Shown here in pieces: positions 6,385 to 45,540 of a stretch of 64,000 bases of DNA. The position numbers and the translations under genes are program-made. How positions within the stretch are numbered: position 1 is the first letter of the stretch; every line of letters starts with the position of its first letter. The DNA comes from Chloroflexota bacterium (lineage in GTDB: Bacteria > Chloroflexota > Anaerolineae > Anaerolineales > Villigracilaceae). The notes beneath the pieces were generated by a model. It was not told the DNA's origin, made no database searches, and saw only the letters and a program-made list of their open reading frames with translations. Location: contig JACPVF010000013.1 in NCBI GenBank assembly GCA_016191845.1, forward strand, positions 248,001-312,000, in the 5' to 3' direction.

Positions 6385-6447
6385 CCCCCTCTGTCCTTCG
6401 GACATCTCCCCCAAATACGACGGTGGTGCCGTCGAATTTGGGGGAGA
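6385..6447 (+). repeat. Palindromic repeat with CTCCCCCAAAT arms
   Basis: A leader (CCCCCTCTGTCC) is followed by inverted arms CTCCCCCAAATACGACGG (6406-6423) and CCGTCGAATTTGGGGGAG (6429-6446). The same architecture recurs inside the coding region at 13905-13962, and a shorter relative is at 6516-6554. It appears to be a mobile, REP-like palindromic family. The whole 6103-6570 gap contains only this element, the two neighbouring repeats and the hsdS-tail copy. Confidence 0.7.
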
Positions 6448-6515
6448 ATTGGAAACTGAGATTTTTATAAACGCTGAGAATGTTTCTAAAATTTTGATTT
6501 CAAGAGCAACCGTCC

Positions 6516-6554
6516 CTCCCCAATTTCGACGTGCTCTTCGTCGCAATTGGGGAG
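6516..6554 (+). repeat. Palindromic repeat with CTCCCCAATT arms
   Basis: Inverted arms CTCCCCAATTTCGACG (6516-6531) and CGTCGCAATTGGGGAG (6539-6554) surround a 7-base loop. The sequence is related to the element at 6406-6446. It ends 17 bases before the start of the DUF559 gene, so the transcript leader may fold into this hairpin just before the ribosome-binding site. Confidence 0.7.
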
Positions 6555-6570
6555 GTTAGGAGGGGAAGAA

Positions 6571-6930
6571 ATGCTACGCCCGCCCAGAAGTAACTCAAAA
6601 ACCAGAACCCATGCCATTGAATTGCGAAAAGAATTAACTCCCACCGAGCGAAAACTCTGGGCAATCATTCGTAATGACCAGTTGGGCGTCAATTTCCGAA
6701 GGCAACATGCCATTGGAAAATATATCGCCGACTTTTGTGCGCCGCGTAAAAAATTAATCATTGAACTGGACGGCAGTCAACACTTGGAGCAAGAGGCGTA
6801 CGATGAAGAAAGAACCAAATATCTCGAATCCCAAGGGTACAAGGTGATCCGTTTCTGGAATAACGATGTAACCAACAACATCGAGGGGGTTATACTTGTC
6901 ATCATGAACACATTGGAGAAGCAGGAATGA
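6571..6930 (+). CDS. DUF559-family, Vsr-like endonuclease domain protein
   Basis: The product is 119 residues. It has the complete DUF559 pattern: the first helix with ELTPTERKLW, then FRRQHAIGKYIADF, then KKLIIELDGSQH, which holds the acidic D-x-n-E-x-D core of the restriction-endonuclease-like fold, then YKVIRFWNNDV. The family is related to very-short-patch-repair endonucleases and is common as a single-domain gene in bacteria; its role is not settled. The start chosen is the ATG at 6571 with AGGAGG-like bases (taggagggg) upstream, rather than the TTG at 6547 that lies inside the palindrome. Confidence 0.85.
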   Translation: MLRPPRSNSKTRTHAIELRKELTPTERKLWAIIRNDQLGVNFRRQHAIGKYIADFCAPRKKLIIELDGSQHLEQEAYDEERTKYLESQGYKVIRFWNNDVTNNIEGVILVIMNTLEKQE

Positions 6931-6991
6931 TTCTCGGGGACGAATAGCGGCGTCCTGTCGCTGATCTGGAGGGGTTGGGCCTCCCCCCCGT

Positions 6992-7013
6992 CCCCTCTCC
7001 TACAGGAGAGGGG
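6992..7013 (+). repeat. Short palindrome CCCCTCTCC-TACA-GGAGAGGGG
   Basis: This is a perfect 9-bp hairpin with a 4-base loop between the DUF559 and VF530 genes. It has no T-run and probably belongs to the same class of intergenic REP-like sequences seen upstream. Confidence 0.6.
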
Positions 7014-7119
7014 TGCTTGCTGGCGAGAATCACCCCCGCAAGCCAAAAAGAATTTGTTCTTTCTTCTAAAAACGTCGAATGACCATCCTCTGCACACAAA
7101 CACAAATGAAAGTTACAAA

Positions 7120-12883: not shown

Positions 12884-14266
12884 ATGAACCTCGCCCAGGC
12901 TCTGCGAACAATCCCTGTCGACCCCATCACGGTGGCGGCGGTCGGCGCGGGCGGCAAGACCAGCGCTTTGTTTCAGCTTGCGCGTGATTGGCTCTCTGCG
13001 CCGCACGGCCCATCCTCCGTGATTCTCACCGCCACCTCACACCTGGGCGAATGGCAGATCCCCCTGGCCGACCGTCACCTCATCGCACAATCTCCCGCCG
13101 ATTTGGATGACCTGCCCGCGACAGGCCTGACTCTGGTCACGGGGCCGCTGGATGGGACGCGTACCCGTCCCCTGGACCCCGAGCTGCTCGCCCGTTTACG
13201 CGCGGAATGCGCCGCCCGCGGTTGGCCCCTGCTGATCGAAGCCGACGGCTCACGCCGACATCCGCTCAAGGCGCCTGCCGGGCACGAACCGCCCCTGCCC
13301 GATTTTGTGGACCTGGTTCTCGTGGTCGCAGGGCTGACGGGGTTGGGCCGTCCGCTGACGGATGAGTTCATCCACCGCCCCGAGATCTTCTCCCACCTGG
13401 GCGGACTTCCGCTCGGCGCGGCAGTCACGCCCGAGGCCCTGGCGCGTGTCTTGACTCATCCGCAGGGTGGGTTGAAGAACATCCCCGCCTCTGCGCGCAA
13501 GGTTGCCTTACTCAATCAGGCCGACACGCCCGAGTTGCAAGCCCTGGGTGGAAAGCTCGCCAACCTGCTCCTGCCCGCCTTCGACTCTGTCATCGTCGGC
13601 GCACTGCAATCCCCCACAACGTTCCAAACCTTCGAACCCATCGCAGGCATCGTCCTTGCGGCGGGTGCATCCACGCGCTACGGTCAGCCCAAGCAGCTGC
13701 TCGACTGGCGCGGGACTCCCTTCGTACGCGTCGTGGCACAAACGGCCTTGTCTGCTGGCCTCACGCCCGTGCTGGTCATCACGGGCGCACATGCCGAGGA
13801 AGTGGAAGATGCGCTGCAAGGCTTGCCCGTGCAGATCGTCCGCAACGAAGCCTGGCAGGAGGGACAGGCCAGTTCGATTCGTGCAAGCATCAATGCATTG
13901 ACCTCCTCCGTCCCTGCGGGACACCTTCCCCATTTTCAAAGAAAATGGGGAAGGACGGGAGGGGGCATCTTCCTGCTGGCCGACCAACCGCAGGTGACCG
14001 TCCCCGTGCTGCAAGCCCTGGTCGAGCGCCACCGCCTCGACCTGCCGCCCGTGCTCGCGCCAATGGTGCAGGATGCGCGCGCCAATCCCGTGCTCTTCGA
14101 CCGAGTCACCTTCCCCGATTTGCTTTCCCTGCAAGGCGACGTGGGCGGACGTGGCATCTTCCATAAATATCCGCCCGCGTACCTGCCCTGGCATGACGAC
14201 CGTTTATTGCTGGACGTGGACACCCCCGAACAATATCGCAGGCTGGTGGATGATGAAACGCTTTAG
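12884..14266 (+). CDS. Fused YqeC - MocA-like protein (molybdenum hydroxylase maturation)
   Basis: The product is 460 residues. Residues 1-245 match YqeC, the selenium/molybdenum hydroxylase accessory protein: P-loop-like VGAGGKTSALF, LTATSHLG, EADGSRRHPLKAP, and GLTGLGRPL. Residues about 255-460 match the MocA/CTP:molybdopterin cytidylyltransferase fold: LAAGASTRYGQPKQLL, VITGAHAEEV, GIFLLADQPQV and LLDVDTPEQY. MocA transfers CMP from CTP to molybdenum cofactor for xanthine-dehydrogenase-type enzymes. The two are usually separate genes. A palindromic element lies in frame at 13905-13962 (about residues 341-360), giving an odd SVPAGHLPHFQRKWGRTGG insertion before LLADQPQ. The stop overlaps the next gene. 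Confidence 0.9.
   Translation: MNLAQALRTIPVDPITVAAVGAGGKTSALFQLARDWLSAPHGPSSVILTATSHLGEWQIPLADRHLIAQSPADLDDLPATGLTLVTGPLDGTRTRPLDPELLARLRAECAARGWPLLIEADGSRRHPLKAPAGHEPPLPDFVDLVLVVAGLTGLGRPLTDEFIHRPEIFSHLGGLPLGAAVTPEALARVLTHPQGGLKNIPASARKVALLNQADTPELQALGGKLANLLLPAFDSVIVGALQSPTTFQTFEPIAGIVLAAGASTRYGQPKQLLDWRGTPFVRVVAQTALSAGLTPVLVITGAHAEEVEDALQGLPVQIVRNEAWQEGQASSIRASINALTSSVPAGHLPHFQRKWGRTGGGIFLLADQPQVTVPVLQALVERHRLDLPPVLAPMVQDARANPVLFDRVTFPDLLSLQGDVGGRGIFHKYPPAYLPWHDDRLLLDVDTPEQYRRLVDDETL
13905..13962 (+). repeat. Palindromic repeat inserted in frame inside the MocA domain
   Basis: Nested inverted arms are present: outer CCTCCGTCC (13905-13913) with GGACGGGAGG (13953-13962), inner CCTTCCCCATTTTC (13924-13937) with GAAAATGGGGAAGG (13941-13954). 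Its layout, including a short leader resembling CTCTGTCCTTCGGACAT, parallels the intergenic element at 6385-6447. The reading frame passes through without a stop. Confidence 0.75.
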
Positions 14267-14852
14267 CATCGCCGCCCTGATCCTTGCCGCGGGACAATCG
14301 AAGCGCATGGGCCAGCCCAAGATGCTGCTGCCCTGGGGGGAAAGTACCGTACTGCAAACCGTCGTCACCGCCTTCCGCACGGCAGGCACGGACGAAATCG
14401 TCGTCGTCACAGGCGCGCTGCACGATTCGATCACAGCCCTGGTCGGCGACACGGCACACACCGTTTTCAACCCCGAATATGCCAGCGGCGAAATGATCTC
14501 CTCCATGCAGTGCGGGCTGCGCCGCCTGCTTGCGGAAGCAACCGAGGCGGAGGCCGTTCTCATCGGGCTTGGCGACCAGCCTCAGGTCCAGGCGCAAAGC
14601 GTAGAGGCGGTGTGCGCGGCCTTCCACCAAAGCGGGGCAAGCCTGGTCGTGCCTTCCTATCAAAAACGGCGTGGACATCCCTGGCTGGTGGCGCGTCCAT
14701 TGTGGGAGGCGCTGCTGGCGCTCGAATCCTCCCAGACGCCGCGCGATTTCCTCAACGGGCACGCGGACCAGATCCAATATGTGGACGTGGACACGCCCAC
14801 CATCCTGGCAGATCTCGACACTCCCGAAGACTACTTGAAATCCAGACCCTGA
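14250..14852 (+). CDS. MocA-like nucleotidyltransferase (second copy)
   Basis: The product is about 200 residues and a member of the MobA-like NTP transferase family, closest in pattern to MocA. It has LILAAGQSKRMGQPKMLLPW at the N-terminus, VVTGALHDSI, FNPEYASGEMISSMQCGL, LIGLGDQPQVQ, then RGHPWLV and YVDVDTPTILADLDTPEDY at the end. It lacks a YqeC domain. The start is ATG-ATG at 14250/14253, overlapping the end of the YqeC-MocA gene by up to 17 bases, so the two are translationally coupled. Two MocA-like domains in tandem may serve different cofactor clients, or one may have drifted. Cytidylylation of molybdopterin is the family activity; specificity is inferred. Confidence 0.88.
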   Translation: MMKRFSIAALILAAGQSKRMGQPKMLLPWGESTVLQTVVTAFRTAGTDEIVVVTGALHDSITALVGDTAHTVFNPEYASGEMISSMQCGLRRLLAEATEAEAVLIGLGDQPQVQAQSVEAVCAAFHQSGASLVVPSYQKRRGHPWLVARPLWEALLALESSQTPRDFLNGHADQIQYVDVDTPTILADLDTPEDYLKSRP

Positions 14853-14900
14853 CGTGCTATCTTAAATATGGAACGGTTCGGTTCCAGGAAGGAGTTCACC

Positions 14901-15185
14901 ATGACTGACTGGGACATGATGACCGAGAACATCCGCCTTGCCATGCAGGCCATGGACGAGGCCCAGCGCGCCCGCGATGCGCTGCAGGCCCAGCCCACAC
15001 CCGACAAGTTCGATGCATTCCGCGCCCAGATGCAGGAATTGATCGAACACCTCTCCAACCTCCAGACTGTGCTCGATGACGAAGAGAAGTACGCTGTGGA
15101 TGAACTGGCCGACTGGCTCAGTTCGGTCTTCACAGGCCATCGCGCGGACTATCGCCATACGCCGCGCATGGAGCGTCAGGTTTGA
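14901..15185 (+). CDS. Small helical hypothetical protein (94 aa)
   Basis: This 94-residue, almost entirely helical, acidic protein has heptad-like spacing (MAMDEAQRARDALQAQ region, then AQMQELIEHLSNLQTVLDDE). It may form a coiled coil. There is no signal peptide or membrane segment, and I do not recognise the family. The ATG at 14901 is preceded by AGGAAGGAG, a strong ribosome-binding site, and so was chosen over the ATG at 14868. It is followed 55 bases later by the PH-like gene in the same direction. Confidence 0.65.
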   Translation: MTDWDMMTENIRLAMQAMDEAQRARDALQAQPTPDKFDAFRAQMQELIEHLSNLQTVLDDEEKYAVDELADWLSSVFTGHRADYRHTPRMERQV

Positions 15186-20710: not shown

Positions 20711-20747
20711 GCCATACAGCATGCTGTCCCTTGGCATGCTGTATGGC
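20711..20747 (+). terminator. Terminator hairpin after tail-collar genes
   Basis: GCCATACAGCATGC (20711-20724) and GCATGCTGTATGGC (20734-20747) form a perfect 14-bp stem with a 9-base loop, followed by TTCTT. Confidence 0.88.
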
Positions 20748-45468: not shown

Positions 45469-45497
45469 GCCTCTCCAGACGCCAAAAAGGAACTTCT

Positions 45498-45539
45498 CAT
45501 TAAGCAAAAAACGCCAGGCCTGGCGTTTTTTGCTTAATG
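45498..45539 (+). terminator. Perfect 42-base palindromic terminator
   Basis: The 21-base arm at 45498-45518 (core AAAAAACGCCAGG) is followed at once by its exact complement to 45539. It lies between the convergent TPR gene and AOR gene and works for both directions. Confidence 0.92.
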
Positions 45540-45540
45540 A

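Follow-up and report, generated by a model that had tools for sequence, protein, structure and literature searches.

How a palindrome can come to lie in frame inside an otherwise typical gene, and what kind of element it would belong to, is the question raised by a window of 64,000 nucleotides (the whole stretch of DNA analysed) from a Chloroflexota bacterium of the Villigracilaceae. Palindromes within genes are best known from Rickettsia, and scattered cases exist among REP sequences. The open reading frame at 12884-14266 on the forward strand encodes a YqeC-MocA fusion of 460 aa, with the Pfam domains YqeC (PF19842, residues 17-167) and NTP_transf_3 (PF12804, residues 255-429), and the palindrome is located in its MocA half. 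As the original prediction held, the palindrome is in frame and without a stop, a single frame of 460 aa spanning the element. The gene is single in its genome, where the sole other match of the query is the adjoining 30% MocA paralogue. The second MocA-like gene of the window (14253-14852, forward strand), recognised by alignment and, on a longer frame, by Pfam NTP_transf_3, carries no insert.

The element has a 64-bp core at 13902-13965 on the forward strand (66 bp counting the flanking A and C), delimited by the sequence, by folding and by its match to a covariance model of the family (R1). It had been placed at 13905-13962, where the palindrome does lie, and its boundaries are slightly wider. 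The left and right outer arms (13902-13909 and 13958-13965, both from folding) enclose a small hairpin, GTCCC-TGC-GGGAC (13910-13922, from folding, with compensatory changes elsewhere in the family), and an inner hairpin found by inverted-repeat search (13924-13954), all on the forward strand; the 14-bp arms of the latter, 13924-13937 and 13941-13954, are exact and separated by a 3-nt loop. The whole is predicted to form a three-way junction, with an RNA folding energy of -44 kcal/mol (z -6.5) and a DNA folding value of -24.5 (z -6.2), and in both cases 0 of 200 shuffles were as good. With its exact inner arms and such a fold, the nested inverted repeat claimed for this cytidylyltransferase gene is real.

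A chance palindrome at 13902-13965 is ruled out by the fold and the family, not by the inner arm alone. The longest arms in five simulated windows measured 10, 10, 11, 14 and 11, which leaves a 14-bp arm by itself within chance; the chance reading is rejected because the whole element folds far better than its shuffles and because a family of such elements exists. Inverted repeats with arms of at least 10 number 15 in the window versus 2-5 in simulated ones, and other strong ones are located at 45497-45540 (arm 22) and 20711-20747 (arm 14). A search of Rfam with positions 13000-15000 returned only matches far below the curated scores, and no curated family was matched.

At the protein level, the element encodes about 22 residues where the usual loop has 7, a net gain of about 15. 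The loop measures 24 residues in the orthologue alignment with the insert and 9 as usual; the alignment to PDB 2we9 has a 15-residue gap at the insert, and PDB 3d5n is likewise without it. A gain of 13-20 residues had been proposed from a comparison with the second MocA copy, which is exceeded by 12 residues. Matches to YqeC-MocA were obtained in 56 of 61 genomes, and the 30 orthologues whose loci were returned were aligned. More than half of them (16/30) have the 9-residue loop, e.g. PPETGAA, followed by IFLLADQP. Orthologues without the insert thus exist, as the alignment suggested in the original prediction was meant to establish, and a loop sequence shared by all orthologues, which would have spoken against an insertion, is not what is found. 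Another 7/30 have longer loops without a strong palindrome, hence the MocA loop is permissive in any case. The remaining 7/30 hold a palindrome with arms of at least 8 in the loop, and six of these seven belong to the element family (own genome, G007, G017, G036, G024 and G025; five genera), all six copies differing in sequence; the loop of G015 has a palindrome of another type.

The distribution of the insert among these orthologues is patchy. When the loop columns are left out of the tree, the family label needs 5 changes, at least 3 of which are forced by well-supported branches, and it shows no clustering, as 157 of 500 shuffles gave a count as low. G007 and G029 belong to one genus, and of the two only G007 has the insert. 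The orthologue in G001, which is of the same genus as the own genome, has a different 16-residue loop and not a clean empty site. Among the aligned orthologues no exact empty site or movement was seen, the loop being remodelled at the base level. Remnants of the element in same-genus orthologues were not significant (125/500 shuffles as good for locus L053, 188/500 for L055), and locus L068 of G035 is a likely remnant (1/500).

The arms of the element are dispersed over its genome. A pattern search located 21 distinct places, of which about 18 belong to the family as judged by eye; the reversed control pattern gave none. The R1 model, built from 7 rows of which one is a typed consensus, gave 31 matches at E up to 0.5 in the same genome, which reduce to 19 distinct places, and it had matches in 32/41 genomes among the matches listed; the element of the window scores 87.9 bits, being itself one of the rows. 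Arms restricted to a single locus, the other finding that would have told against a repeat, are therefore not the case. A related palindrome between genes at 6385-6447 had also been pointed out, and it is an intergenic family copy with a degenerate right arm (R1 match at 6389-6458, forward strand, E 1.1e-4). Over 71 distinct copies, 96.2% of the cells are paired (93.3% in the 8-bp outer arms), 22 of 26 pairs have changed on both sides, and structures slid along the alignment are 59-74% paired; covariation is 0.343 versus 0.137 in shuffled data, a result that leans towards the R1 structure because the alignment was fitted to the model. Most of the 60 best copies end in purine-CCCCC...GGGGG-pyrimidine, and with the flanking purine and pyrimidine (48/60) the unit measures 66 or 57 bp. 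The 55-nt copy in a GMC oxidoreductase gene of the own genome (G000) recurs letter for letter in G024, where another gene holds it. The 60 copies showed no excess over expectation of equal flanks of 2-6 nt, such as a target-site duplication would leave. Among the papers listed for the element's own letters, none concerned bacterial repeats by title, and none contained the three small-hairpin words.

Many copies of the family reside inside genes. The open frames around the best 60 R1 matches were read and their proteins recognised by eye, and 28/60 were found inside proteins (24 before second frames were considered), with one more (L142) in an open frame without a nameable product. The hosts include valyl- and alanyl-tRNA synthetase, a UvrD-like helicase, RNA and DNA methyltransferases, xanthine-dehydrogenase-like, transaldolase/isomerase-like and ThyX-like proteins, dihydroorotase and glycosyltransferases, and by eye the in-gene copies are spread over at least 11 genera of a single family. 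For example, the insert is a gap in PDB alignments of valyl-tRNA synthetase (22 residues) and dihydroorotase (15 residues); those of alanyl-tRNA synthetase, xanthine dehydrogenase and the ThyX-like protein do not extend over the insert. The own genome has 8 of its 19 places inside genes by eye, one (L038) in a proline-rich linker, and none of nine copies in G051, of the same order and another family, is clearly intragenic. The in-gene copies are 55-76 bp long in 27 of 28 cases and 96 bp in the other. By eye, a copy (L042, G000:C13:3716-3768) is also seen in frame in a Cas4-type-looking gene, and a DNA-methyltransferase-like frame (L124, G017:C26) has two in-frame R1 matches, the second just before the NPPYG motif.

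A subfamily with at least one CCCCCC end was found only inside genes (18/18 copies versus 10/42 of the others; Fisher 1.4e-8). As this split was noticed in the same data, it was retested on copies found afterwards, by a search of 298 genomes of the class with a 30-base pattern, which gave 18 matches in 8 genomes and none in the own genome. All five copies in G036 are in frame (alanyl-tRNA synthetase, HemD-like, xanthine-dehydrogenase-like, ABC ATPase and RlmN), of which the alanyl-tRNA synthetase copy is not independent because it occupies the same site as in the congener G017. The single G066 copy, with 3 mismatches, is without a convincing host gene, and the matches in G005 and G218 fall outside the subfamily. 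Core lengths of 1 mod 3 occur in 23/28 in-gene versus 13/32 other copies (p 0.0015), and in-gene copies have on average 5.4 of 6 frames open (shuffled 3.6), the others 3.9 (shuffled 2.9).

Some loops of conserved enzymes have received unrelated palindromes in different genera. This is observed for the orthologues of YqeC-MocA, GMC oxidoreductase, valyl-tRNA synthetase and RlmN, the loop of the last sitting just before its CxxxCxxC motif. In the first three proteins taken together, 20/76 loops have palindrome arms of at least 8 versus 1.42 expected from windows of the same length in the same genes, three of the 20 being the seeds of the comparison; by a stricter test of folding energy the excess is smaller, with 18/76 loops reaching the 1% level of the gene that contains them or lying below it. 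At a glycosyltransferase site, copies are found in G000, G003, G006, G008 and G028, in both orientations. Such hot-spot loops are natural insertion-tolerant sites in conserved enzymes. In the valyl-tRNA synthetase loop, another palindrome type, GTAGGGGCG...CGCCCCTAC-like, was seen (L338, L341, L343, L344 (own genome)).

About 7 kb from the YqeC-MocA insert, the window holds a DUF559 gene framed by palindromes. The gene (6571-6930, forward strand, 119 aa; PF04480, E 3.2e-40) encodes a Vsr-like nuclease, the candidate enzyme of the family. A second C-rich inverted repeat, with arms of 11 and no R1 match at E <=1, lies just upstream (6515-6555, from the inverted-repeat search), and a C-rich palindrome lies downstream (6981-7029; inverted repeat at 6992-7013, arm 10; weak R1 match, E 0.13), neither with a strand assigned. 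A search of 12 genomes gave 43 DUF559 matches, spread over 11 of them, and the 24 best and near-complete matches were examined. Arms of at least 9 occur within 200 bp upstream of 18, downstream of 16 and on either side of 22 of them, compared with 9/160 distant windows; L449 and L450 have no arms of 9 on either side, and L438 has no C-rich palindrome. Of 44 named records with a hit, 14 were chosen by hand (cyanobacteria, Deinococcus, alpha- and gammaproteobacteria; pathogens left out), and in these arms of at least 9 were found upstream of 9, downstream of 7 and on either side of 11 (control 9/98).

Gene ends often carry terminators, and other genes were therefore taken as controls, with one DUF559 locus dropped for its short flank. 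Palindromes of any composition were found upstream of 27/37 DUF559 versus 25/106 control genes and downstream of 22/37 versus 15/83; for C-rich palindromes the counts were 25/37 versus 3/106 upstream and 18/37 versus 2/83 downstream. In 20/38 loci the two flanks of a DUF559 gene are inverted repeats of each other more strongly than any of 36 distant pairs; the other 18/38 do not exceed this bar, which was passed by 8.4% of 227 flank pairs taken from different DUF559 loci. In Deinococcus psychrotolerans, for example, the inverted repeat of the flanks is 71 bp long. A gene between palindromes or inverted flanks, the arrangement proposed for a gene-bearing element, is hence found (22/24 and 11/14; 20/38). 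At L448 (G008:C58) and L451 (G005:C19), the linker of a methionine-synthase-like frame contains an in-frame DUF559 domain that has a palindrome on each side; in G008, two parts of the enzyme between which PDB 8g3h has 5 residues are 189 residues apart. At L465 and L466, on Deinococcus plasmids, further mutually inverted flank sequence extends beyond the C-rich arms and differs between the loci, which looks as though the unit had inserted into a palindrome already there or had copied its flank in inverted form.

The explanation that we propose builds on a sequence family with a predicted and covarying structure, its in-frame position, its patchy occurrence, the hot-spot loops and the palindromes that flank DUF559 genes. 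These make it probable that the palindromes form a mobile family, the small ones being gene-less derivatives that DUF559 nucleases would move; the enzyme role, the derivation, the transposition and the translation are the inferred parts of this reading. The element at 13902-13965 would then be one copy of a dispersed palindromic unit of about 66 bp (purine + 64 + pyrimidine) with a three-way junction, which came to lie in frame in the permissive MocA loop and is presumably translated as about 22 extra residues, and the family as a whole behaves as a mobile repeat may be expected to. In full elements, inverted repeats would enclose two hairpins with the DUF559 gene between them. The small palindromes would be derivatives without this gene and may be moved in trans, possibly in the form of folded single strands, and the lack of a target duplication would fit single-strand insertion. 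The CCCCCC subfamily, found only inside genes, may survive there because its unit has a length of 3n and almost every frame is open. That this amounts to a distinct kind of mobile element, with a DUF559 gene between hairpins in inverted repeats in several phyla, gene-less derivatives moved in trans, a lineage-specific gene-dwelling subfamily and whole units in methionine synthase, is put forward tentatively, with less than even confidence. No description of such an element was found in the literature searched.

The same loci could be read with the DUF559 genes as bystanders that do not move the palindromes, being simply lodged within or next to them, or working on them as repair nucleases. A repair role has been proposed for the Vsr-like fold, and the available part of one report assigns a DUF559 protein of Caulobacter to mismatch repair (PMC12907096); likewise, G018 (99% complete) has 5 R1 matches among the matches listed, i.e., copies without a DUF559 match. 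A bystander does not account for the gene lying between mutually inverted flanks in over half of the loci, for the several different palindrome types around it or for whole units in frame in methionine synthase, and we consider this reading rather unlikely. The excerpts of the DUF559 literature that were consulted held no link to palindromes.

Mobilisation by RAYT, the Y1 tyrosine transposase proposed for GTAG REPs, is improbable. Y1_Tnp genes do occur (2 matches in the own genome; present in 8/8 relatives searched) and the absent target duplication would fit them. However, a copy of the element lies within 1.5 kb in only 2/32 Y1 loci, C-rich palindromes flank 0/26 Y1 genes, palindromes of other kinds accompany several Y1 genes, and the ends of the element are not GTAG. 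R1 matches at E <=0.01 are found at 12/30 DUF559 loci versus the same 2/32 Y1 loci, one of which (L183) is beside a DUF559 gene. Without association at the Y1 loci (2/32; C-rich flanks 0/26), RAYT mobilisation found no support.

A further alternative is that the inserts persist because they serve the host protein or its mRNA, for instance as a regulatory hairpin, in pausing or as a new loop. The strong mRNA hairpins (predicted), the recurrence at the same loops and the compensatory changes would all be compatible with it, but the inserts are patchily present among orthologues, different palindrome families occupy one site and both orientations occur at others, which makes a retained function quite improbable. 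Still less can be said for palindromes made locally by template switching in replication, without a mobile element: one sequence and architecture is common to copies over many genes and genomes, and the identical 55-nt copy lies in two different genes of two genera, which makes this origin very improbable even though several unrelated palindromes share the same loops and their arms stay complementary. Removal of the insert by RNA splicing or ribosome bypass, with a protein made without it, can hardly be credited, as most units have a length of 3n and are open in the frame used, neither of which removal would require. In favour of it, several inserts adjoin conserved motifs, e.g. before CxxxCxxC of RlmN. 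The mobile family with DUF559 as its mover is thus the preferred reading. If it is true, palindromic repeats that lack an enzyme would gain one in DUF559. The question of what moves transposase-less palindromes can be put to the test with a single small protein and a single hairpin, and DUF559, as a domain of unknown function, gains a concrete hypothesis. In-gene palindromes are seen here in tRNA synthetases, RlmN and other conserved enzymes, with one subfamily only inside genes.

The known palindromic repeats, taken from sources each available in part, share some of these traits. The Rickettsia palindromic elements (RPE), which the insert had been said to recall, are given as 100-150 bp long and known from Rickettsia and Wolbachia; different RPE groups occur at one locus of orthologues, and RPE-4, -6 and -7 share hot-spot behaviour (PMC3767692). 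The likeness lies in palindromic repeats in frame in unrelated protein genes (here 28/60 best copies by eye, with the PDB gaps of valyl-tRNA synthetase and dihydroorotase). The element differs in its length, 55-76 bp for most in-gene copies and 96 bp for one in place of about 100-150 bp, in its three-way junction and C-rich arms and in the bacteria that carry it. The comparison hence stands for in-frame palindromic behaviour (insert-free orthologues, 19 own-genome places with 8 in genes, 32/41 genomes among the matches listed) and fails for membership in the RPE, from which size and architecture set the element apart.

GTAG-tagged REPs, or REPtrons with RAYT, are short dispersed palindromes of which some are intragenic (PMC3733652), whereas the element has neither a GTAG end nor a link to a Y1 transposase, the copies at 2/32 Y1 loci not being flanks, and its candidate enzyme is DUF559. 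CGTC-tagged REPs are palindromes without a dedicated transposase, some intragenic, and include RPE-4 and RPE-6 (PMC3733652). They have stems of 8-9 bp, A-T first pairs and loops of 4-5 nt versus inner stems of 13-14 bp, C-G ends and a third helix in the element; their stem, loop, terminal CGTC and CCA tail were not found, CGTC occurring inside some copies only. Bacterial MITEs are non-autonomous, have terminal inverted repeats and can form in-frame fusions (PMC10969869). The 8-bp outer arms of the element are such terminal repeats, but it is without a target duplication, and its parent enzyme would be a nuclease and not a known transposase. Perfect inverted repeats of up to 284 bp inside protein genes are reported from Nematomorpha mitochondria (PMC6649704), which are animal organelles and resemble the present case in having palindromes within protein genes. 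REP counts have been tabulated for Anaerolinea (PMC12306157).

Among the matches listed, the motif CCCCTCNGTCNCTTCGNGACANCTCCCCC (L188-L306) was seen in Rhizobium, Caulobacter, Clostridia, Chloroflexota, Bifidobacterium and others. Of the 119 named loci listed for the palindrome motif, only 2 hold DUF559, both <=50 bp from the palindrome, a count that tells against the DUF559 reading. A palindrome with AGGTGACAGTCACCTT adjoins one of the Y1 transposase genes in the own genome (L088) and is also located downstream of a DUF559 gene in G001 (L429).
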